From the IMG/VR virus record IMGVR_UViG_3300026484_000515, positions 1-64,000 of that record: a stretch of DNA of 64,000 nucleotides; one strand, written 5' to 3'. Every line of letters starts with the position of its first letter. Positions within the stretch are counted from its first letter, which is position 1. Positions 8,626 through 50,219 of this stretch are shown piece after piece. The notes under the pieces are model-generated. The model had not been told where the DNA came from. It worked only from the letters and a program-made list of their open reading frames with translations, and made no database searches. The DNA comes from a virus. Made by a program: the position numbers and the translations under genes.

Positions 8626-11082
8626 ATGCCAAAAACAAAGAATATAAAGTTAGAAATTTTACCTGAAGAATCAAAAGAATCTTTCCTTTTTAATCTTTTT
8701 CCAAATGAGCAATATGTTAAATTTCTTTTAGAAGAAGAGAATCTTTTTCTCATTTTCACCATCTTTAACAAAGACAAAGTTTCTAATATATATTACGTTT
8801 CTCCAAAAGAAATAGATGCTTTTTATCTTCAATACCTACCATATGAAGATAGACAAAGCAATGGCTATACATCTGTCCTTTATAAAACTTCCTATGTTTA
8901 CAACAAAAAGTTTGTTTCCATAAGAACAGCTAAAAGAGAATGGAAATCTCTTAAAAACAGGTCAAAAATAATAGCTATTGACATAGACGAACCTTTTAAG
9001 AAAGTTGGTTCAAAACTTAAAAAGAAATTTCAGGAAATTGATAAAAACCTTTACAATTCAAGTGCTTTCATTAAAACACATGGAAAGAATGTAAGAATAC
9101 TTATTTTTCTAAAAGAAGAGATAGATTTAGAAAGCAATGAATGGTCTATTTTAAAGCATTTTCTCATAAACATCATTTCTGACATAGCACCCATTGATAA
9201 AATCTCCCCAGTTTTGACTTTATGGGATACAAATGTCAAGACGCATTGGAAAAAGTTCAAAGAAAAAGGAAAAACAGATTTTCCAAAAATAGAAAAAGAA
9301 TCTACTGAATTCTGGAATTTCTCAAATGTTATACTAAAAGCATATAATGTTTCTAAACCAGACCTGAACTTTCTAAAAGAGCAAGAATATCCTTTAAACT
9401 TACCCATTCCTGAAGGATGTGAAACACTATTGAAAGAGGAAGATTTTGAAGACAACAAAAGAGAAAAAGTTTTGGAAGAGCATAGATATTACACTTCAGA
9501 TACTTTTATGGAAAGATTCAAATATCATTTTGAAAGAAAATTCCCAGGATACAAATATGATATCATAAGAATGCCTTCAGGAAAAGTTTATGTTCATTGT
9601 CCTGAGTTGAAAATGAGACTCAAAAAAACTTTAACTTTTGTTTTGCAGGAAAGACCACACGAATTGAATATGCAATTTAACTTTAGAAAACTAATTTCAA
9701 TCAACCACAAAGAAAAGAAAATAGTTCCACAAAAGAGAATTTCAAAACTTAAAAAATCCAATCCTTACAAGTTTACATTCATTTGTGATTCGAATATTCA
9801 AACATTAGCATCTTTCATTTGTTGTGTTTCTGAAACTAAAGAGGAATTCTTATACCTAAAAAATCTTTGTTTGAACCTTATTAGCAATGAATTAGATAAA
9901 TGGAAATTTGAAAATCTATACTACAAAAACATGAATCTTGTTGAATACAAATTTGAAAAAGAAGAAATTCTACAAGCAATAAGTAAAATGTTTGATTTCA
10001 TTTGGAATCATAACTTATACAATGAAGCAGGTGTAATTTACAATTTAATGAAAAATTATTCCCACATAATTACAAAATATCTAAATGACCCAAATAGACT
10101 TGAAAAGAAATCTTATGTTTCTCCCAAATCTTTAACATTTTTCTTCACAAAAGTTTACTCCATGTTAGCTTATCACCACAATTTCAAATGGTATAACAGA
10201 TATTACTCAAATCATAAAGGATATCTGGTTCCAGCAAGAGAAATTTCAAAGATTGTTAATCAAGCGTTGAGAAAAGTGTATGGATTAGGTTTTAGAATTT
10301 TACTTCCAGACGTTAAAGTTATCCTTGAAATGTTAGGAGTAGATTTTGAAATCAAAAAAGAAGGTTTTCATATCTACTTTGTTATCAAGAATTTTCCACA
10401 GTTGAAAGAAGAGGAAGTTGAAAGAAGATTAAGTAATGAAATCAAGAAGAGAATATACATCATTAAGAAGTTCTCAGATTTCAAGAAGTATTCTGTCAAA
10501 AGAGTTGTTGATTTCTTTTCTCTCGTTTTAAAAACAGAGGGAATTATATTAGGAAGGGAAGGATGTAGTCGTCTCTTATATTCTTTTGAAGGAAAAAGAT
10601 TATCAAATGAATTAACAGAATTAGAAACAGAAATCTGGATATTATGGAATTTTAACGATTATGCTCTACCTGATTTTAATTTGATTTTTGATATGATAAC
10701 AAAGAGAATGACTACATATGAAATTGCAAGATATTTAGGAGCTAAACATTATGGTTATCTTGATTTGAATGGATTTGCAAAAGTTGTTAATATAATACAG
10801 GAGAAACTTGGAATAGAGAATAGTTTAAGAGTTAATAAAGATGAAGAAATAGATGAAAATGAGATTTATGAGATTTTTCTTGAACAATGGAAAATGAAGA
10901 AACAAGGAAAAGATAAAATTGTTGAAATCTTTAATCCATTCTTTAGTGAATTTAATCCTGGAAAAAGGGTTGAACAGAAGATAAAGAGAGGAATAAAGAT
11001 TTTGAAAGAACTTGATAAGGGGTATTTGTTATGGGTAAAAGAAGAATGGGAAAAGATGAAATCAAATGCTATGTGTGCTTGA
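8626..11082 (+). CDS. large early protein, possible archaeo-eukaryotic-primase (PrimPol)-like
   Basis: An 818-residue protein, first gene of the rightward unit, with GAGGAG before its ATG. I do not recognise it as a whole. Around residues 118-155 a hydrophobic strand with IIAIDID (two acidic residues spaced as in primase motif I) is followed by FIKTHGKNVRILIFL, which resembles motif II (S/T-x-H-type strand) of AEP primases. A possible third acidic motif (LWDTN) lies near residue 204. Near the C-terminus, TTYEIARYLGAK looks like a helix-turn-helix. A separate T4-type primase is encoded at 52 kb, so this would be an additional activity. The assignment is tentative; the gene itself is certain. 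Confidence 0.4.
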   Translation: MPKTKNIKLEILPEESKESFLFNLFPNEQYVKFLLEEENLFLIFTIFNKDKVSNIYYVSPKEIDAFYLQYLPYEDRQSNGYTSVLYKTSYVYNKKFVSIRTAKREWKSLKNRSKIIAIDIDEPFKKVGSKLKKKFQEIDKNLYNSSAFIKTHGKNVRILIFLKEEIDLESNEWSILKHFLINIISDIAPIDKISPVLTLWDTNVKTHWKKFKEKGKTDFPKIEKESTEFWNFSNVILKAYNVSKPDLNFLKEQEYPLNLPIPEGCETLLKEEDFEDNKREKVLEEHRYYTSDTFMERFKYHFERKFPGYKYDIIRMPSGKVYVHCPELKMRLKKTLTFVLQERPHELNMQFNFRKLISINHKEKKIVPQKRISKLKKSNPYKFTFICDSNIQTLASFICCVSETKEEFLYLKNLCLNLISNELDKWKFENLYYKNMNLVEYKFEKEEILQAISKMFDFIWNHNLYNEAGVIYNLMKNYSHIITKYLNDPNRLEKKSYVSPKSLTFFFTKVYSMLAYHHNFKWYNRYYSNHKGYLVPAREISKIVNQALRKVYGLGFRILLPDVKVILEMLGVDFEIKKEGFHIYFVIKNFPQLKEEEVERRLSNEIKKRIYIIKKFSDFKKYSVKRVVDFFSLVLKTEGIILGREGCSRLLYSFEGKRLSNELTELETEIWILWNFNDYALPDFNLIFDMITKRMTTYEIARYLGAKHYGYLDLNGFAKVVNIIQEKLGIENSLRVNKDEEIDENEIYEIFLEQWKMKKQGKDKIVEIFNPFFSEFNPGKRVEQKIKRGIKILKELDKGYLLWVKEEWEKMKSNAMCA

Positions 11083-38757: not shown

Positions 38758-39621
38758 ATGCTAAGCAGAATTTTAAAACATCGTAAGAGAATTTTAGGAA
38801 ATCAATTTCAGTCAAAAATAATTGATTTATTTCCATCTTTTAAAATCTTTTTAGCAGAAGGAGATATATACATAGATTTTTATGCTGGGAATGATAATAA
38901 TTCGGGAAGGACAAAAGACAAACCTATAAAGACACATCATAGGTTATTAGAAATAATGAATGAGATGAAAAACAATGGTGCTACAAGGATTGTTGTTTCA
39001 GTTATTCCAAGATGGTATCAAGTGGATTTTGGTGTTGATTATAGGGACCATACAGGTTGGTTGCCTGTATTAGATATACAAGAAACAGTTTATGAATTTA
39101 ATGGAGCAATAATTGATGGAACTGGATATAAATTTGGTGCAAGAGTAATTTATATGCAAAATAGGAATAGTTCAATTATAAGAAAATGTTATGTAAAGAA
39201 TTGTATGATAATTAATACAGTTGGTGGTGCTTTTGCAACCGGATTTAATACAGTAGCATTTCCTAATTATTATCAGGGAGATTATGATACTGCTCCTTGT
39301 GAATTACATTTGGAAAATATAAAGGCATTTAATCGTCATGTGGGGTATACTAATAGTTATGCTGATAAAATAATTGTGGAAAAGGAAGTAGAACATTATT
39401 ATTCAGAAACTTCAGCTTTTATTTACTGTAATGAAATAGATTATGTGAATTTTAAATCTAAAACGATTGTTCCTGGGGTTATTTTCAGACGTAATTCAGG
39501 TGGTATATATGGTTCTGAAAATGTTGATACAAATGGAATTTGCACATTGGATGAATTTAAATCAAAGTATTCAAGTTGGTTTGAAAGTGCAGGAGAACCA
39601 GTTTATGTAAAAATATCATGA
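38758..39621 (+). CDS. beta-helix tail-spike-like protein
   Basis: A 287-residue protein with the start of a pectate-lyase-type right-handed beta-helix: GDIYIDFYAGNDNNSGRTKDKPIKTHHRLLEIM (residues 36-68) matches the DUF1565-like pattern. After that come repeated strands (NSSIIRKCYVKNCMIINT). It is followed by a paralogue. It is a candidate receptor-binding or polysaccharide-degrading spike. The segment SFKIFLAEG just before the helix resembles the targeting sequence of the preceding protein but lies 27 residues in. Confidence 0.62.
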   Translation: MLSRILKHRKRILGNQFQSKIIDLFPSFKIFLAEGDIYIDFYAGNDNNSGRTKDKPIKTHHRLLEIMNEMKNNGATRIVVSVIPRWYQVDFGVDYRDHTGWLPVLDIQETVYEFNGAIIDGTGYKFGARVIYMQNRNSSIIRKCYVKNCMIINTVGGAFATGFNTVAFPNYYQGDYDTAPCELHLENIKAFNRHVGYTNSYADKIIVEKEVEHYYSETSAFIYCNEIDYVNFKSKTIVPGVIFRRNSGGIYGSENVDTNGICTLDEFKSKYSSWFESAGEPVYVKIS

Positions 39622-39629
39622 GGTGAAAA

Positions 39630-40571
39630 ATGAGATTTTTGAACAGAATAAAGTTTGTAAAGGATAATAAAAAGAGATTTTTTAATTATCATTTGCATTT
39701 TACAAAAGCTGAATTGTTTAAAACCAACATTTTAAAATGGAGTGATGGTGATATATATGTAGATTTCATAGAAGGTTCTGATGCTAATGATGGTTTTTCT
39801 AAAAATAGACCGATAAAAACTCATTTGAAGTTATTTGATACAATAAAGAATCTTTTAACTCAAGGAGTGAGAAATATAACAGTTTCATTTAAACCAGGAT
39901 GGTATAGAATAAAAGGTGATTCTGTAAATGGTGATTGCTGTTGGTTAGGAATACCATATGTGAATCAGAAATATAATATAACTTTTGAGTTTAATGATTC
40001 TATTTTAGAGTTTATAAGTGGTGTTCCTGTAAGATTGTTTGGTTGTCCTGATAAGGGAAGTAATGTTTCATATACTCTTGCTCCTGATGTTACAGTTCAA
40101 AATGCTATTTTTTCATATGCAACAGAAAGCACTATAAGGGGTGGAAGTTATTTTTCTGCTGGCTATAAAGTTGATTTATATCCTTCTACACATCATGGTT
40201 GGTATGATGACAATACACTTACTTATCATGTAAAAAATGTGAAATGTTTTGAACATGGTGATGCTTTTTATTTGAATTCATCACAAGATATTGTTGAGGT
40301 AGAAGACTTTGAAATATACTCTACAGGTGAATATGAAGGAAATTATTGGTATAAAGTGTTTTATGTTAATAGATGCAAGTATGTGAAAATTCTTAACACA
40401 ATGTATTATTCTTGTCCTGACCTTTATAGAAATGCACAACCTATAAATGCTCATTTGGCTATAAAAGTTCCATATATGACTTATGAAGAATTTAGACAAA
40501 AATTTAAATCTTGGTATGATAAATTTAAAACATATAAATTGTTCAAAATGGCAACATCTTATGAGAATTAG
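39630..40571 (+). CDS. beta-helix tail-spike-like protein, paralogue of the preceding
   Basis: A 313-residue protein, tandem relative of the gene before it: both have GDIY(I/V)DF, then G(N/S)D-N--S--(D/N)-(K/R)PIKTH, and close with a short helix (YEEFRQKFKSWY versus LDEFKSKYSSWF). Probably a second spike with a different receptor range. No catalytic residues can be assigned. Confidence 0.62.
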   Translation: MRFLNRIKFVKDNKKRFFNYHLHFTKAELFKTNILKWSDGDIYVDFIEGSDANDGFSKNRPIKTHLKLFDTIKNLLTQGVRNITVSFKPGWYRIKGDSVNGDCCWLGIPYVNQKYNITFEFNDSILEFISGVPVRLFGCPDKGSNVSYTLAPDVTVQNAIFSYATESTIRGGSYFSAGYKVDLYPSTHHGWYDDNTLTYHVKNVKCFEHGDAFYLNSSQDIVEVEDFEIYSTGEYEGNYWYKVFYVNRCKYVKILNTMYYSCPDLYRNAQPINAHLAIKVPYMTYEEFRQKFKSWYDKFKTYKLFKMATSYEN

Positions 40572-41871: not shown

Positions 41872-42282
41872 ATGATAGAATTTGAAACAAGATTCTACAT
41901 AACAAATTTAAACAAATTTGTTGATTTTATCTTCCTTCCTACCTTTGAAACTGGTTGTCAAATCTTTCTTTCTAAAGAATTAGGTAAAGTTCTTTACTGG
42001 TTTGATTCATGGGAATTAGATGGATATGAAATTTATTTTGCTATTGACATCCAGGATAGAATTTCCTATCTTAATCCAAGAGGTTTGTTTTTAATGTATG
42101 ATGTAGAGTTTGCAATTTTAGATGGTGATAAAATGACTTTCTTTGATGCAGATTGGATAAAAGAAAAGGTGTTAAAAGAAGAAATTGATGATGAATTGTT
42201 GACAAGTTATATTGTTCTTGAATATTTTAGAAAACAAGTAAAAACAAAAAAAGGAGGACAGGAATGGGAAAATTGGTTTTGA
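41872..42282 (+). CDS. hypothetical protein
   Basis: A 136-residue aromatic-rich protein of unknown family, abutting the previous stop codon. It overlaps the sliding clamp start by 19 bases. Its final segment contains the AGGAGG that serves gp45. Confidence 0.65.
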   Translation: MIEFETRFYITNLNKFVDFIFLPTFETGCQIFLSKELGKVLYWFDSWELDGYEIYFAIDIQDRISYLNPRGLFLMYDVEFAILDGDKMTFFDADWIKEKVLKEEIDDELLTSYIVLEYFRKQVKTKKGGQEWENWF

Positions 42283-43013
42283 CAGATACTGATGTTAGTT
42301 TCCTTTCAACAATAGCTACTCTTGATTCTGTAATCTTCCATCCGGAGAAAAAAGCATTTTTTGCTGTTGATAATGAAGGTTCTATGTGTGTAAAAATAGT
42401 CCCTGAGAAATCCAATGAAATAGAAGTTGATAACATAATTTATCTAATTAACATTCGCCAGATTGCGAATATCTTAAAGAGGTTCCTTTCAAAGAGAAAG
42501 GAAGTTCCGAATATTGTTGAATTGAAAGTGGAAAATACAAGGATTATTTTCAAGGATAATGAATCAAATATAACTTACAGATTCATACTTGGAAATGAAA
42601 CTCTTGTGGAGGATTTTATCAAATTTGTAGAAAAATTTGATTCATGGCTGGATTCATTTGAATCTATTTGTTCATTCACATTGACTTCAGATAAGAGAAA
42701 AGAATTACTTTATGCCCTTTCATCTTATAAGGATGGAAAAATAGGATTTGAATCCAGGGATGGAAAGATATATGTTGTGATATTTTCTGGTTCATCTTCT
42801 CTTGAAGAGAAAGAGTATTTCTTTGAAATGGAATTGCCTACATTAAAGAATATATCTAAGGAAATTTTTGTTGTTATAGAACCCAAATTCCTGAAATATC
42901 TTTATGATGTGGAATATGATGTTGAAATTCTTGAAAATGAAAAGAATGTAAAGATTATAAAGATGCAGAAAAACAATTTAATGTATGTTGCTGTTGAACA
43001 GTTTCTTGAATAG
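42264..43013 (+). CDS. 45: sliding clamp gp45-like
   Basis: A 249-residue protein with clamp-like alternating strands: SFLSTIATLDSVIFHPEKKAFFAV, VNNI-type helices and an IKIIKMQKNNLMYVAVEQFLE C-terminus. Low sequence conservation is usual for gp45. The assignment relies on length (T4: 228) and on the T4 order clamp, gp44, gp62, gp43 that follows. The clamp tethers polymerase and couples late transcription through gp33/gp55. Confidence 0.75.
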   Translation: MGKLVLTDTDVSFLSTIATLDSVIFHPEKKAFFAVDNEGSMCVKIVPEKSNEIEVDNIIYLINIRQIANILKRFLSKRKEVPNIVELKVENTRIIFKDNESNITYRFILGNETLVEDFIKFVEKFDSWLDSFESICSFTLTSDKRKELLYALSSYKDGKIGFESRDGKIYVVIFSGSSSLEEKEYFFEMELPTLKNISKEIFVVIEPKFLKYLYDVEYDVEILENEKNVKIIKMQKNNLMYVAVEQFLE

Positions 43014-43038: not shown

Positions 43039-43992
43039 ATGGATATTTGGGCGGAAAAGTATAGACCAAAGAAATTTGAAGATTTGATACTTCCTTCAAC
43101 AGTTGAAAATCTTTACAAGAAAATTCTTGAAACAAAAGAAATTCCTAATTTACTTTTGTATTCTTCACCTGGAACAGGAAAAACATCGTCTGTAAAGGTT
43201 CTTGCAAAAGAATTAGATTATGAAGTTTTATATATCAATGCTTCTCTTGAAAACACAATAGATGTAATAAGAACAAAAGTTCAAACTTTTGCTGCTTCTA
43301 AATCATTCTTTGGAAAAAGGAAACTATGTTTTCTTGATGAGGCAGATAGAATTTCAATAGATGGTTTAAATTCACTAAAAGTGTTGATAGAACAGTTTTC
43401 TTCTAATTGTTCATTTGTAATAGCAACTAATTACATTGCAAAATTTCCTGAACCAATTATTTCAAGATTCCAAGTGGTCAATTTTGAAGAATATGATGAG
43501 GAAGAGGAAAGAGAATTACAGAAAAAATATGCTGGAAGATTGTTAAAAATTCTGAAAAATGAAGGTGTAAAAAATGTTGATAAGGAATTAAAAAGAGCAC
43601 TTATAAGACTTGTTCAAAAAACTTTTCCTGACTTAAGAAAAGCAATTGTAGAGTTGCAAAGATTGTATTATTCTTATGGAGAAAATATTACAGTAGAAGC
43701 AGTTGATAAACATGTGAAGGATTTTATTGAAGAAACTATCAAAAAGATTTATCAAGGAAAGTATAGAGAAGTGGTCAAAGAAATTCTTTCTAAACTTACT
43801 CCTGAACAATTTTATGTGGAAGTTTATCGGAAAATGAAGAAAGCAGTAAACGTTTCTGATGAAGATTTAATGGGTGTAATGATGATTCTTGCCAAGTATG
43901 CTCACCAGCATTATATTACAGTTGATAGAGAATTAAATCTTGCTGCTTGTATAGCTGAGTTAATTACATTCCTTATGAAGGAGAAAAAATGA
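43039..43992 (+). CDS. 44: clamp loader large subunit gp44 (AAA+)
   Basis: A 317-residue RFC/DnaX-type ATPase. WAEKYRPKKFEDL is the family start, Walker A SSPGTGKT (42-49), Walker B LCFLDEADR, sensor-1 VIATN, and SRC-like PIISRFQVV. It loads gp45 onto primer-template junctions using ATP. Overlaps gp62 by 4 bases. Confidence 0.95.
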   Translation: MDIWAEKYRPKKFEDLILPSTVENLYKKILETKEIPNLLLYSSPGTGKTSSVKVLAKELDYEVLYINASLENTIDVIRTKVQTFAASKSFFGKRKLCFLDEADRISIDGLNSLKVLIEQFSSNCSFVIATNYIAKFPEPIISRFQVVNFEEYDEEEERELQKKYAGRLLKILKNEGVKNVDKELKRALIRLVQKTFPDLRKAIVELQRLYYSYGENITVEAVDKHVKDFIEETIKKIYQGKYREVVKEILSKLTPEQFYVEVYRKMKKAVNVSDEDLMGVMMILAKYAHQHYITVDRELNLAACIAELITFLMKEKK

Positions 43993-44402
43993 ATCCTTTT
44001 GAACTTGCAAAGAAATTAATGAAAGGTGAAGCAATTACAGATGATGAATACCGTTTAATTCAGAAACATTACTATCTTTTAAGGCGGATATTTGCTTCCA
44101 GAATGTATTTTGCATATGTTTTGAATAATACTAACATTTACACATTTACACCAGAAATGATAGCAGATTATATGAAGTATGTAATTCCATATGTGGTTTA
44201 TCATTATCGTTTGAAAAAAGAGCAATATCTCAAAAATATCTTTCCTAAAAAGAAAGATAAAGAGGAAAAGAAAGAATTTTATGAGTATCTTACAAGACTT
44301 GGATATGATTATAAAACTTATGAAATGGCAAAAGAAATGAGTGAAGAATATAAGGAAATAGAAAAAGAATTCAAAAAAGTTAAAAAGGAGTTAAAGAAGT
44401 GA
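43989..44402 (+). CDS. 62: clamp loader small subunit gp62-like
   Basis: A 137-residue helical protein placed exactly where gp62 lies, between gp44 and polymerase, with ATGA overlap to gp44. T4 gp62 is 187 residues, so this one is short. The sequence similarity is weak by eye; position is the main evidence. Confidence 0.65.
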   Translation: MNPFELAKKLMKGEAITDDEYRLIQKHYYLLRRIFASRMYFAYVLNNTNIYTFTPEMIADYMKYVIPYVVYHYRLKKEQYLKNIFPKKKDKEEKKEFYEYLTRLGYDYKTYEMAKEMSEEYKEIEKEFKKVKKELKK

Positions 44403-45523
44403 AAGATGCTTTTTATTTGAGAATTTTGAAAATACCTTTTAAAGAAAGGATATATCATCGTTTTTATGAGAATGGTAAGAGAAAAGAGGAAATTTTTGAT
44501 TTTCCTGTTTCATTTGTTATCAAAAACAATGCTTCATTAAATGACTATCCGGAACATTGGGGAGTTTATAAGAAATTCATTAGCAATGAAGAGTATTTGT
44601 TAGTAAAAGATAAGAAGATTGATACAGATTCTTATAAAGTTGAAAAACCTGATATAAAAACTCTTTTTACAATTTTAAAATATCCAGAACCTATTAGATA
44701 TGATAAATCAAAAATTCGGATTTTAAACATAGATATAGAAGTTCATTCGGAAAAAGAATTTCCAAAACCAGAAATTGCAAAACATCCGATTGTGTCTATT
44801 ACATGTCAGGATATGGTAGAGAATAAATTTTGGGTTTTTGCTTTAGGAAAAGAAGTGGAAATAAAACAACCAAATGTGAAAGCATTCTTTTTTGATTCAG
44901 AAAAAGAATTGATTGTTAAATTCTTAAAATTTTATCAAAAATTCCATCCGGATATCATAACAGGATGGTATATAAGTGGATTTGATATCCCTTATATTCA
45001 AAATAGAATTGTCAATCTTTTCCAGAATTCTGAAAAAAGATTAATTGCTCTTGCTACATTTTCTTTAATTTCAAAAAAGTTAATGAAAGAAGTTATAGAT
45101 GTATATCTATCTAAGAGACCTTTGAAAGATTTAGAAGATTACCTAAAAACAAAAATCCATGGTGCAGCTGTTCTTGATTACATAGACCTTTATAAAAAAT
45201 TTCAACTTAAAAAGTTATCATCTTATTCTCTTGATTCTGTTGCTTCATTTGAATTAGGGGAGCATAAGATTGATTATTCGGAATATCTTTCTCTTAAAAA
45301 TTTGTATAAGGAAAACTTTCAAAAGTTTATAGAGTATAACATACGAGATGTTGAGTTGGTCTATCTTATAGACAAAAAAGTAAAGTTTATTGACTTGACG
45401 TTGCTTATGAGTTATGCTGCAAGAAGTGATTTTGAAGATGTTCTTGGTGTAGTTAAAAGATGGGAAAAGAAAATATTCTATTATTTGATGACTGAGTATA
45501 AAACATTTATTTGCAAAAATTAA
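44399..45523 (+). CDS. 43A: DNA polymerase gp43, N-terminal (3'-5' exonuclease) part
   Basis: A 374-residue protein with the family B exonuclease half only. Exo I is LNIDIEV (Asp112, Glu114), Exo II is TGWYISGFDIPYI (Asp196; the usual Asn before it is Tyr191), Exo III is YNIRDVEL (Tyr313, Asp317). It ends at KTFICKN, just before the segment where the palm begins. It starts at GTG 44399, overlapping the gp62 stop. The polymerase domain is a separate gene at 47684, 2.16 kb on, with a methyltransferase between. Split gp43 is known in some Aeromonas T4-like phages. Confidence 0.92.
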   Translation: MKDAFYLRILKIPFKERIYHRFYENGKRKEEIFDFPVSFVIKNNASLNDYPEHWGVYKKFISNEEYLLVKDKKIDTDSYKVEKPDIKTLFTILKYPEPIRYDKSKIRILNIDIEVHSEKEFPKPEIAKHPIVSITCQDMVENKFWVFALGKEVEIKQPNVKAFFFDSEKELIVKFLKFYQKFHPDIITGWYISGFDIPYIQNRIVNLFQNSEKRLIALATFSLISKKLMKEVIDVYLSKRPLKDLEDYLKTKIHGAAVLDYIDLYKKFQLKKLSSYSLDSVASFELGEHKIDYSEYLSLKNLYKENFQKFIEYNIRDVELVYLIDKKVKFIDLTLLMSYAARSDFEDVLGVVKRWEKKIFYYLMTEYKTFICKN

Positions 45524-45542
45524 ATTTTTGATGGTGAAAATT

Positions 45543-47672
45543 ATGATGTCCCTTATTAAAATTTCTGAAATATCAGAAAAAGATTTAAATTTATTGAAGA
45601 TAAAAGATTTAGTTGAAATAAAAGAAGCTAATCAGTTTAAAAAACTTTTAATTAATGATTTGTATTATTATTTGAGAAATCATGGAATAGAAGAAGATGA
45701 AGTTTTTGAAATTATCATGAATCTGTTTCTTATGAAAATTTATGATGAATTAAAACATATCGATAAGCCAGAAGAAGAACTGGATTTTCAAATAAAACCA
45801 GAAGATTATTTTAATCCTGATAATTTTTATAAGAGAATGAAAAAATTGTTATTTGAAGTTTATACTGAATTGTTTTATGAAGATGTTGAAATAGCAAGAA
45901 AAAAAGAAATTTTAAAACATAAGGAAAAAGAAAAAATTCTTTTAGAAATTGTTTTTCATCTTCAAAAATTTAAATTTAGAAGTTTAAGGTTTTTGGATGA
46001 GGATATTATTGGAGATATTTTTCTTAATTTTTTACATTCTATTTTCAGACAAAATAAAGGTCTTTTCTTTACTCATCCTAATATATGTCAATTTGTATGT
46101 AAATCTTTAGGTATAGAGAAAGTTAAAGATGATTTAATTGAAAAACAGTCTTGTAAATTTATACTTGATCCATCTTGTGGTTCAGGTGCTTTTTTAATAT
46201 CAGCTTTGCGTTTATTGTTTTTGAATTGTAGTGAAGTAGATAAAAGAAAATTTGCATCTAAAATTTTATACGGAATTGATAGTGATCCTAAGAACGTAAT
46301 TTTATGTAAAGTGAATATGTTTGTTCATGGTGATTGTTTTGGAAATATCTACAAAGGAGATGCTTTAGAACCTCTTATTGATTTACCATTTCCTTTTGTA
46401 AAAGAAGAGAATATTGAAAGATTTGATAATGGAGTAACTAAAGAAAGTTTAAAGGGAGGAAATGGAGTAGATTTCATTATTTCTAATCCTCCATTTAGTT
46501 TAAAGAAGAAATTTAAAGAATGTGAACATTTTAGAATGAAAGATTTTATTCCTTTTAAGAATGGTGTTACTAATGCTTCAGAATGTCTTTTTATTGAAAG
46601 ATGGTTTCAACTTCTTAAACCGAAAGGTCGTTTGGGTGTTGTTTTACCTTGTGCATTATTTGATAGTAAGGAATATTTAGAAGCAAAACTATTATTTTCA
46701 TGTTATTTTAAAATTGTGGCAATTATAAGTCTTCCTGAACATGTTTTCTTTCCTTATGCGCAACAGAAAACGGTTTTAGTTTTTGCAGAGAGAAGGGATA
46801 TTAAGGAAAGTAATGAACTTTATAATGTTTTACTAAAAAACGGAAAGGAAGGATTAGTAAAAAGAATAGGAACAGAAAAGATTATCTGTTTTAATGTTGA
46901 AAATATAGGTTATAGAAGGTTAAAAAGACAAAGAAATATCATTACAGAAAAAGTGGATAAAAATGATCTTACAGATGATTTAGCAAAAATAATACTTGAC
47001 GCATTTGAAGGGAATTTTACTGAATCTTCTAAAGTAATTGTAAAAAGTTTAAAAGATTTTTGGCAAAATCAAAATTTGCATGTTTCTTCTTTCAAGAAAG
47101 ATAGAGAAACTATTACACTTAAGGAAATGGGTTGGAAAATAGTAGCTGTTGAAAAAATAGAATATGAAGAATTGAAGGATATAGATGTTGAAAATTTATT
47201 TTTGTGCGAAACAGGTGACATAGTTTCTGGCGGAGCAGGTATTATAACGCCCAAAAAACTTAGTGCCACTACTTCGTCCAATAGAGAAAGAATTTTAAAG
47301 AAAATAAAAAGCGGAAAATTCGGTCGTCTTAAGGAAGGGGATGTAATTATAGCGCCTGTTAGAGTTTATCAAGGCAAGATAGCTGTTGTGCTGGGGGAAG
47401 CGTCTAATTTTCTCTTTTCCAAGGACTTTATAGTTCTCAGAAAGGAAGATATTACTGATCCCCTGGAGTCTCTTTTTGTGTTCAAAGTTTTAACTGAAAA
47501 GGAAAATCTTGATAGACTTATGGAACTTTCATCTACGGGGAAAAGTGGGTATCCTAAAATAAAAGACAAGGAGAAAATTTTGGAAATTGGATTTTTTAAA
47601 CTTGAAATTGAAAAGAAAGAACTTAAGGAACTTAAAAGTCTTTATGAAACAATTTATAAGAAACTTTTTTAA
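45543..47672 (+). CDS. type I-like N6-adenine DNA methyltransferase with specificity domain
   Basis: About 709 residues. Likely start is ATG 45543 or 45546, after GGTG; a TTG at 45528 would add five residues. N-terminal helical region, then the HsdM-like core: FFTHPNICQFVCKSL, motif I DPSCGSGAFL (near 210), motif IV SNPPF (near 315). The last ~190 residues resemble an HsdS-type target-recognition domain (LFLCETGDIVSGG, LKEGDVIIAPVRVYQGK, then a coiled coil). There is one TRD only, and no nuclease or HsdR domain was seen. It lies between the two DNA polymerase pieces. It likely methylates phage DNA against host restriction or marks replication state. Confidence 0.85.
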   Translation: MMSLIKISEISEKDLNLLKIKDLVEIKEANQFKKLLINDLYYYLRNHGIEEDEVFEIIMNLFLMKIYDELKHIDKPEEELDFQIKPEDYFNPDNFYKRMKKLLFEVYTELFYEDVEIARKKEILKHKEKEKILLEIVFHLQKFKFRSLRFLDEDIIGDIFLNFLHSIFRQNKGLFFTHPNICQFVCKSLGIEKVKDDLIEKQSCKFILDPSCGSGAFLISALRLLFLNCSEVDKRKFASKILYGIDSDPKNVILCKVNMFVHGDCFGNIYKGDALEPLIDLPFPFVKEENIERFDNGVTKESLKGGNGVDFIISNPPFSLKKKFKECEHFRMKDFIPFKNGVTNASECLFIERWFQLLKPKGRLGVVLPCALFDSKEYLEAKLLFSCYFKIVAIISLPEHVFFPYAQQKTVLVFAERRDIKESNELYNVLLKNGKEGLVKRIGTEKIICFNVENIGYRRLKRQRNIITEKVDKNDLTDDLAKIILDAFEGNFTESSKVIVKSLKDFWQNQNLHVSSFKKDRETITLKEMGWKIVAVEKIEYEELKDIDVENLFLCETGDIVSGGAGIITPKKLSATTSSNRERILKKIKSGKFGRLKEGDVIIAPVRVYQGKIAVVLGEASNFLFSKDFIVLRKEDITDPLESLFVFKVLTEKENLDRLMELSSTGKSGYPKIKDKEKILEIGFFKLEIEKKELKELKSLYETIYKKLF

Positions 47673-47683
47673 AAGGAGGGAAC

Positions 47684-49288
47684 ATGTCAGACAAAAAAAT
47701 AATAGGTGCTTATGTAAAAGATATAAATCCTGGTGTTTATAAGAATGTATGTGTCTTTGATATAACATCTTCTTATCCTAATCAAATAATTCATTGTAAC
47801 ATTTCACCAGAAACTTATATTCCGGAAATTCCTGAAGATTTGAGATACATTTTAACAGAAAGACTTGAAGATCACTTAATAAGACCACCTAAAATTCAAT
47901 CAGAATTAGATGATATTTTGAGGAAAGTTTTCTTTGATTTGGATTGGTTTGAAGAGAAAGTAACACCATATTTGAAAGCAAATGATTTAATCCTTACAGC
48001 AAATTTAACTCTTTTTAGGAAAGATAAAATAGGTTCATTTGCAAGATTGACAAAGATAACTTTTGAAAACAGAAAAAAGTGGAAGAGAATTTATCAAGCG
48101 CTTGAGAGATTATACGGTTTACTTGAAAAAGGTGAAATTTCTCAAGAGAATTTGAAGAATGAAATAAAAAAGCTAATTGAAACATATCAGGAGAATTTTG
48201 AAATTGTAGCTTTCTTGAAAGAACTTTTGAGTAATGAAAGAATAACAAAAGAAAAATTGCATGATTTTATGACAACTGCTGATTTGATTCAGTATGCTCT
48301 TAAAGTTGAAATCAATGCATTTTATGGTGCTTTTTCTAATACAGGGTTTATGTTCTTTGAGAAAAATATGGCACAGACCATTACAGCTATGGGACAGTTA
48401 TGTATAAGAGGAGTTGCTAATGAAATAGAAAAAAGAATTAAGGGTTGTGTTAACATATACAATGATACAGATTCTTGTTTCCTCATGTTTCCTGAAATAG
48501 AAAACCCTTATGATATTCTGAAAAAAGAAGAGGAAATTAACAAAGTAATTAATGATTATTTTGATAGACTGACAGAAGTTTTAAATTTAACTGAAAGAAG
48601 AATTTTTATGGAAATGGAAACAGTTTCTGATATTTCAATTTTCATGGCTAAAAAGAAATACATAATGAAATTGATTTGGAAAGAAGGTGTTGAATATGAT
48701 AAAGATGAAAAGCCATATCACTATAAGATAAAAGGATTTGATGTAATAAAATCTTCTACGCCAGAATTTGCAAGGGAAAGACTTGAAAAGGTTATAGATA
48801 TGACGTTTGATTACTTGATGGGTAAAAGTGATTTGAATATTATAAGGAAATATTTGCAAGATGAATACAGAAACTTTCTTAAAGCACCTGTTGAAGATAT
48901 TGCTTTTGCAAGACAGGTGAACAATATTGGTAAGTTTTTGTCAAATTCAGGACTTTACAAAAAAGGAACTCCTGTTCATGTTAAAGGAGCAATCATTTAC
49001 AATCGGTTGGTAGATATTCTGAATTTGCCTGTTGATAAGATATATGATGGTGATAAAATAAAGTGGTTATATGTTCATGAAGATGGGAAGTATAAGACAA
49101 ATTCTATTGCCTTTAAACATTTTATGCCGAAAGAAATATTAAGAGAATTTAAGATAGATTATGAGAAGCAATATCAAATGGGAATGCTTGCACCTCTTGA
49201 ACCTTTATTCAAGGCAGTTGGTTGTTTGGATAAGATAAGTCTTGAAACTGAAAAACTGATGAGTCAAAAGAGAAATAGATTATTTTGA
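47684..49288 (+). CDS. 43B: DNA polymerase gp43, C-terminal (polymerase) part
   Basis: A 534-residue protein that continues family B polymerase: motif A DITSSYP (26-32), motif B KVEINAFYG (207-215), motif C YNDTDS (259-264), then a KKYIMK (KxY) motif and thumb. GAYVKDINPGVYKNV precedes motif A, which is normally internal to gp43. The ATG follows AAAGGAGGG, so it has its own ribosome-binding site. All polymerase motifs are present, so the split enzyme is probably functional as a heterodimer with the 374-residue part. Confidence 0.95.
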   Translation: MSDKKIIGAYVKDINPGVYKNVCVFDITSSYPNQIIHCNISPETYIPEIPEDLRYILTERLEDHLIRPPKIQSELDDILRKVFFDLDWFEEKVTPYLKANDLILTANLTLFRKDKIGSFARLTKITFENRKKWKRIYQALERLYGLLEKGEISQENLKNEIKKLIETYQENFEIVAFLKELLSNERITKEKLHDFMTTADLIQYALKVEINAFYGAFSNTGFMFFEKNMAQTITAMGQLCIRGVANEIEKRIKGCVNIYNDTDSCFLMFPEIENPYDILKKEEEINKVINDYFDRLTEVLNLTERRIFMEMETVSDISIFMAKKKYIMKLIWKEGVEYDKDEKPYHYKIKGFDVIKSSTPEFARERLEKVIDMTFDYLMGKSDLNIIRKYLQDEYRNFLKAPVEDIAFARQVNNIGKFLSNSGLYKKGTPVHVKGAIIYNRLVDILNLPVDKIYDGDKIKWLYVHEDGKYKTNSIAFKHFMPKEILREFKIDYEKQYQMGMLAPLEPLFKAVGCLDKISLETEKLMSQKRNRLF

Positions 49289-49298
49289 GGGGTGAATA

Positions 49299-50219
49299 AT
49301 GATACTAATTGATTTTACTCACTTGTTTTATAGGAATTTGTTTATGAACATTGATAAAATTGCAGCGAATGAAAACTTTTTATATCATGTAATTTTACAG
49401 GATTTGGTATTTTATGGAAAGAAATTTAATCACAATAAAAGAAATAGATTAGTAATTGCTTGTGATAATGGTTCATGGAGAAGAAAATTTTTTAAGGAAA
49501 ACAAAGATAGATTTCCAGAATATCAGCAACAGGATATAGGAAAATACAAGGGGACAAGAAAAAGACAGGAAATTCCTTTTTCTTATGAAAGAGCATATGA
49601 GATTATGGATGATACTATTGAAAAAATGGATAAATGGACAAATTTTGTGGTAATGAAAGTGAAAGATGCAGAAGCTGATGATATAATAGCAGTTTTAACA
49701 AAGAATTTAAAAGATGAACCTGTTGTAATTGTATCTTCGGATAAAGACTTTAAACAATTATTCAGATATAGAGATGATTTAATTATTTTTGACCCGATAA
49801 AGAAAAAAGAAATAAGAAGAAGAGATGTGATTAATCCTGACTTTTTCTTAAAAAAGCATATTATTATGGGTGATAGAATAGACGGAATACTTCCGATTAA
49901 GAAGAGATGTGGAGAGAAGACAGCTGAAAAAATGGCAAAAGAAATTGATAAATTACTCGCTTTAAACCCTGAAATGAAAGAAAGGTATGAGTTTAATGAA
50001 GTGTTAATATCTTTTGATAAAATACCTGAAGAAATTGAAAGGAAAATAATGGATGAGTGGGAAAAGAAAAAAGATGAATATAATTACAATGAAATAGAAT
50101 TGATGAGATGGCTGAATTCAAAATCCTTGAAACAACATTCAAGAAACATAAAGTTGTTTAAGGAAAATAGAGAAACGGATATAATGAAAAGGACATATTC
50201 ATTATCAGATTTACTTTAG
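49299..50219 (+). CDS. rnh: RNase H (FEN-1-like 5'-3' nuclease, T4 Rnh)
   Basis: A 306-residue flap-type nuclease that removes RNA primers. IDFTHLFYRN (active-site Asp), CDNGSWRRK, KGTRK, VMKVKDAEADDIIAVL (acidic cluster), IVSSDKDFKQL, and DRIDGILPIKKRCGEKTA (helix-hairpin-helix) match T4 RNase H (305 residues). GAGGGG precedes the ATG. Confidence 0.93.
   Translation: MILIDFTHLFYRNLFMNIDKIAANENFLYHVILQDLVFYGKKFNHNKRNRLVIACDNGSWRRKFFKENKDRFPEYQQQDIGKYKGTRKRQEIPFSYERAYEIMDDTIEKMDKWTNFVVMKVKDAEADDIIAVLTKNLKDEPVVIVSSDKDFKQLFRYRDDLIIFDPIKKKEIRRRDVINPDFFLKKHIIMGDRIDGILPIKKRCGEKTAEKMAKEIDKLLALNPEMKERYEFNEVLISFDKIPEEIERKIMDEWEKKKDEYNYNEIELMRWLNSKSLKQHSRNIKLFKENRETDIMKRTYSLSDLL

Follow-up and report, generated by a model that had tools for sequence, protein, structure and literature searches.

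A family B DNA polymerase gene in two parts, with a predicted adenine methyltransferase gene between them, in a T4-type phage

Results and Discussion

In the replication operon of an AT-rich (29% GC) T4-type phage, the family B DNA polymerase gp43 appears from its sequence to be encoded as two intact proteins, an exonuclease half and a polymerase half, with nothing measurable missing and with a predicted N6-adenine DNA methyltransferase gene between them. We consider it probable that these halves form a two-subunit polymerase, and that the methyltransferase is an orphan protective enzyme, co-expressed with replication and carried as cargo in the gap. We analyzed 64 kb (the window) out of a linear virus record of 65,710 bases, which is itself probably a fragment. 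The original prediction had named all three genes and a separation of 2.16 kb; Pfam and PHROG matches bear out both halves and the middle gene at the coordinates given below, and the gap measures 2,160 nt.

The split gene and its operon

All genes described here lie on the plus strand, in the T4 order 45-44-62-43N-methyltransferase-43C-RNase H. A gp45-like sliding clamp (42264-43013, phrog_223) is followed by the clamp loader large subunit gp44 (43039-43992; PF21328, PF00004) and by an ORF (43989-44402) that is assigned to gp62 by position only, from synteny with T4 and 44RR, and that has zero Pfam or PHROG profile matches. These three precede the gp43 N-half, and the locus sits in the 45-44-62-43 cluster. 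The N-half (44399-45523, 374 aa), which comprises the N-terminal domain and 3'-5' exonuclease, starts with GTG in a 4-nt overlap with gp62 and matches DNA_pol_B_exo1 (PF03104, E=4.8e-25). The C-half (47684-49288, 534 aa), comprising palm, fingers and thumb, matches DNA_pol_B (PF00136, E=2.8e-20), begins 7 aa ahead of a conserved GAYVK motif, and has its own strong Shine-Dalgarno sequence, AAGGAGG (47673-47679). A T4-type RNase H / 5'-3' exonuclease gene (49299-50219; PF02739, PF09293, phrog_107) starts 10 nt downstream of it. Both gp43 halves and the methyltransferase share one operon: the two junctions of the methyltransferase gene are 19 and 11 nt, and neighboring junctions range from -4 to 25 nt. 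Most of the replication proteins tested have charged residues in large excess over polar ones (CvP about 10-27), a composition that suggests the host may be thermophilic. Elsewhere in the window, two adjacent, paralogous-looking ORFs (38758-39621 and 39630-40571) have a common motif resembling GDIYVDF..G.D.N.G...PIKTH and no Pfam matches.

The original prediction that Exo I-III and motifs A-C are intact holds, every catalytic residue being found in the alignments. Exo I (D112-I-E114, 44732-44740), the Exo II aspartate (D196, 44984-44986) and Exo III (Y313-NIR-D317, 45335-45349) are invariant in alignment A3; motif A (D26-ITSSYPN, 47759-47782) and motif B (K207...NAFYG215, including N211; 48302-48328) were located by alignment of relatives, and motif C (D261-TD-S264, 48464-48475) is invariant in alignment A4. 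Across both halves nearly all of these catalytic positions, D263 included, are invariant alignment columns. Retention of all catalytic residues in an otherwise divergent protein argues for selection on both halves. Modeled with AlphaFold (mean pLDDT 71.5), the N-half matches RB69 gp43 and the free-standing T4 gp43 N-terminal structure 1noy_A (TM 0.66/0.66 by either length), the latter of which we take to be a fragment of 388 residues that is an active exonuclease in the absence of the remainder of the protein. For the C-half the model is poorer (pTM 0.53, TM 0.38), backing the fold family only.

Two further features of the C-half are recorded here as side observations. In motif A (DITSSYP) the Leu of SLYP is replaced by Ser, at the position of T4 L412 / RB69 L415, a fidelity determinant; this Leu is kept in Rhodothermus phage RM378 and in the aligned relatives that cover motif A. 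The motif by which gp43 typically binds the clamp at its C-terminus (PIP motif, with an LExFF end) is unrecognizable at 49230-49288 as well as in the related locus L003, and the clamp gene of the window is likewise divergent.

Alignment to the PHROG gp43 profile (phrog_262, 856 positions) places the N-half at 9-368 and the C-half at 380-851; the halves are therefore adjacent and complementary, about 11 of the 856 positions fall between them, and a comparison with gp43 for lost residues finds nothing measurable absent. The frames flanking the break are closed, with stops after the N-half and before the ATG of the C-half. By multiple alignment, the N-half ends on T4 residue 381. Since the N-terminal domain of RB69 gp43 consists of residues 1-102 and 340-380, and its polymerase domain begins at 381 (PMC3012046), the break coincides with a domain boundary to within a few residues. 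The protein is thus two ORFs instead of the single polypeptide of gp43, which is not a strict requirement, as split members are known. Within the 65,710-base linear, probably fragmentary record, neither the PolB exonuclease domain nor the polymerase domain occurs a second time.

The methyltransferase gene

The only ORF of note on the plus strand of the gap encodes a protein of 709 aa (45543-47672), for which the ATG at 45543 is a likelier start than the listed TTG at 45528. It matches N6_Mtase (PF02384, E=1.8e-25), with SAM motif I (DPSCGSG) at residue 209 and catalytic motif IV (NPPF) at 315, features by which it is classified as a predicted gamma-class N6-adenine DNA methyltransferase, HsdM / type IIB-IIG like. 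Its closest solved relative is the type IIB restriction-modification enzyme BsaXI (RM.BsaXI, E=1.1e-43), with residues 47-437 (45681-46853) aligned to BsaXI 228-641. BsaXI is organized as nuclease (1-192), connector (193-348) and methyltransferase (363-625) (PMC11997821). Because the alignment begins at BsaXI 228, past the nuclease, the phage protein consists of helical connector and methyltransferase domain, followed by the probable TRD described below, and, unlike BsaXI, is nuclease-free; a nuclease motif scan of the protein gave zero matches.

The C-terminal 210 residues (500-709, 47040-47669) are a probable single target-recognition domain (TRD), based on composition and on a weak, marginal match to S.BsaXI 71-193 (E=0.018), so that the original reading of the gap gene as HsdM plus TRD agrees with the N6_Mtase and BsaXI matches. 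Whereas BsaXI has a separate S subunit with two TRDs, the phage protein would have one, fused to the methyltransferase. The TRD stretch has a GC content mostly of 0.33-0.39, versus 0.19-0.30 upstream of it, and a codon-use ratio of 3.35, compared with a phage-like 1.2 in the methyltransferase domain. These differences suggest that the TRD has an ancestry separate from that of the methyltransferase domain, as if exchanged; codon-use ratios above 3, taken as a possible mark of recent acquisition, also occur in gp45 and two other phage genes.

Pattern scans of IMG/VR and GTDB genomes, which reach close relatives only, returned no relatives of the methyltransferase, and those in phages and plasmids are only 22-26% identical, with nothing closer anywhere searched. 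Two defense-system families were considered and rejected, with scores below the family cut-offs: MADS Mad2 (109 versus 720 bits) and BREX PglX (22 versus 500 bits). Separately, in Vibrio phage EniLVp02 the gene immediately 3' of an intact gp43 is annotated as a DNA methyltransferase (L167, 4051-4800).

Break sites and gap genes in other polymerase loci

The only close relative of the window locus is L003, 54% identical in the C-half and 61% in RNase H, which begins inside the C-half, i.e. downstream of the junction, and keeps all C-half catalytic residues; queries with RNase H and with the RM378 polymerase yielded no other close relatives. All 20 of the gp43 loci first checked read through at the break site of the window. 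Another scan sought C-halves whose ATG, with a ribosome site, lies shortly ahead of GAYVK. It gave at least 119 viral contigs, and among the matches listed the frame is always open upstream (for at least 360 codons or as far as the contig end); a single archaeal contig also matched, and its polymerase is intact. Of 139 polymerase loci surveyed in IMG/VR, all carrying the motif, none is split at this site, and 13 end early at the site known from Aeromonas phages. Among everything examined, the break position of the window is rare, shared with RM378 only.

Genes other than a methyltransferase occupy the gaps of several such loci. The gap at the Aeromonas-type site is about 60-80 nt in L068, L071, L081 and L113, while in L078 (4779-8101, minus strand) the gp43 halves flank a gene for a DUF559/Vsr-like nuclease of homing type, 259 aa long. 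In L125 (422-6168) and L141 (1-6702) a gap of 4-5 kb holds the small and large subunits of ribonucleotide reductase, along with an ORF that looks clamp-like by eye, without a convincing profile match; L086, L100, L127, L137 and L142, which have the same early end, probably share this arrangement. Outside the 13, gp43 of L022 (7926-11232; IMGVR_UViG_3300037488_002148) is also interrupted in the fingers region, and the gap there is occupied by a gene for a deoxynucleoside monophosphate kinase (9428-10132, phrog_139, 5e-36). As in the window, an unrelated gene parts the gp43 halves in L022, L078, L125 and L141, but these break in the fingers region and lack a methyltransferase, in contrast to the domain-boundary break of the window. 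The kinase, homing-type nuclease and ribonucleotide reductase genes show that foreign genes recur in the gaps of split gp43, and the methyltransferase fits this pattern of cargo genes. A methyltransferase in the gap had been called unusual, which stands across all that was searched; a gap gene not of the homing type is not unique to the window, given L022, L125 and L141.

The original prediction had pointed to split gp43 of Aeromonas phages for comparison, and there the break does not coincide. The 43A/43B genes of Aeromonas phages 44RR and 25 resemble the window in that gp43 forms two adjacent cistrons of the same operon; however, the 44RR break is near T4 residue 510, in the fingers, and that of the window near 381, at the boundary between the N-terminal/exonuclease region and the polymerase domain. 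The gap also differs, being a short spacer in 44RR, a Seg-type homing endonuclease in phage 25 and the methyltransferase in the window. In Pseudomonas phage MIJ3 and in L036, PolB is likewise in two ORFs with a gene between, but there a split intein is predicted to splice the two products together again, and the window has no intein motifs.

Two inteins were noted in passing. In L036 (16552-20612; IMGVR_UViG_3300026484_000284), which comes from the same metagenome as L003, polB is broken at DTD/S, seemingly by an intein that is split in an atypical way. Its N-intein has 13 residues (SVLGNTEIYLKSA) and ends in a stop; a 194-aa ORF follows, and the last ORF carries the remaining intein (PF14890, 7e-14; ...SHN/S) and the C-extein. 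In L045 (4114-7377) polB carries, at motif A, a large intein that keeps the reading frame (DLG/CYSEDTE...ISGN/SAYP).

The break most like that of the window is in Rhodothermus phage RM378, whose exonuclease (Rm378p024) and polymerase (Rm378p092) are divided near T4 residue 380, and whose C-protein, like that of the window, starts 7-10 aa ahead of GAY(V/I). In RM378 the two genes are separated by 57 kb and have no link to a methyltransferase, whereas the halves of the window lie in one operon, and sequence identity between the two phages is about 23%. In the best tree RM378 groups with L044, apart from window plus L003 (98/96), on long branches; a clade of window, L003 and RM378 is not rejected by the AU test (p=0.114). 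We lean towards independent splits at a permissive boundary.

Origin and function of the arrangement

One possible origin, raised in the original prediction and doubtful in our view, is mobile: a homing endonuclease or intron would have split the gene at the domain boundary and the methyltransferase later replaced it. Homing-type nucleases do occupy the gaps of split gp43 in L078 and Aeromonas phage 25, and MIJ3 is a further precedent for a split polB; the L078 gap and the metabolic genes in the gaps of L022, L125 and L141 make such a history conceivable. These cases sit at other break sites, however, and the window retains no endonuclease, intron or flanking repeat. The junction has zero Rfam matches at E<=1, group I introns included, and intein blocks are absent from the termini of the N-half and C-half when read by eye, in keeping with the initial impression that neither signature is present. 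No homing endonuclease family or motif (HNH, GIY-YIG, LAGLIDADG, Vsr-like) was found in the gap, nor any such enzyme fused or adjacent to the methyltransferase; a search for target-site duplications and flanking repeats met only AT-rich, chance-like repeats at the site, and a search for an empty-site relative found none. Codon use in the methyltransferase domain, moreover, matches the phage. Separate trees of the N-half and C-half, weakly resolved, show no strong conflict.

We regard it as improbable that the halves act separately, as a free 3'-5' exonuclease and a polymerase core without proofreading, even though RM378 keeps the two as distant genes and the N-half is close to the T4 gp43 N-terminal fragment that was solved alone (1noy_A). 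In the window the genes are in one operon and in gp43 order, the N-half retains the second segment of the N-terminal domain (RB69 340-380) that leads to the palm, and the other split gp43 that has been studied works as a complex, with Aeromonas 43A and 43B forming an active polymerase (PMC2988022).

Two readings would make the locus itself misleading. If a methyltransferase contig had been wrongly assembled into an intact gp43, two false joins would be required, each exactly at a gene edge and with normal operon spacing, as well as a fresh stop codon ending the N-half and a fresh start with ribosome site opening the C-half, all without loss or duplication; we consider this very unlikely, even with a single metagenomic record whose junctions appear in no independent locus. 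Still harder to credit is a pseudogenized polymerase, in which insertion destroyed gp43 and replication relies on a different polymerase: although the record is possibly incomplete, both halves have every catalytic residue and clean ends across deep divergence, with no frameshifts, and the C-half is 54% identical to that of L003 with its catalytic residues all kept.

The two-subunit polymerase with a cargo methyltransferase is thus the reading we prefer. By analogy with Aeromonas 43A/43B, where the split is differently placed, the halves would associate non-covalently into a proofreading polymerase. The methyltransferase would be an orphan modification enzyme and cargo, not a part of the polymerase, translated from the message of the replication proteins, and new phage DNA may be methylated during synthesis and so protected against host restriction. 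Cargo may be tolerated in the gap because the break falls between domains. A tighter connection, in which the methyltransferase is fixed in a core replication gene, co-translated and perhaps physically coupled, such that methylation accompanies replication, strikes us as a long shot.

Conclusions

Split phage polymerases are already known; a methyltransferase of restriction-enzyme type in the gap is new among everything searched. The locus adds a candidate natural two-subunit family B polymerase with a domain-boundary break in a normal replication operon. If it is active, its exonuclease and polymerase could be separately purified, mixed and swapped, which would make the role of the covalent link in proofreading testable, and its protein composition hints that the enzyme may be heat-stable. 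The gaps of split polymerases collect cargo beyond homing endonucleases: here a candidate for anti-restriction, elsewhere genes of nucleotide metabolism.
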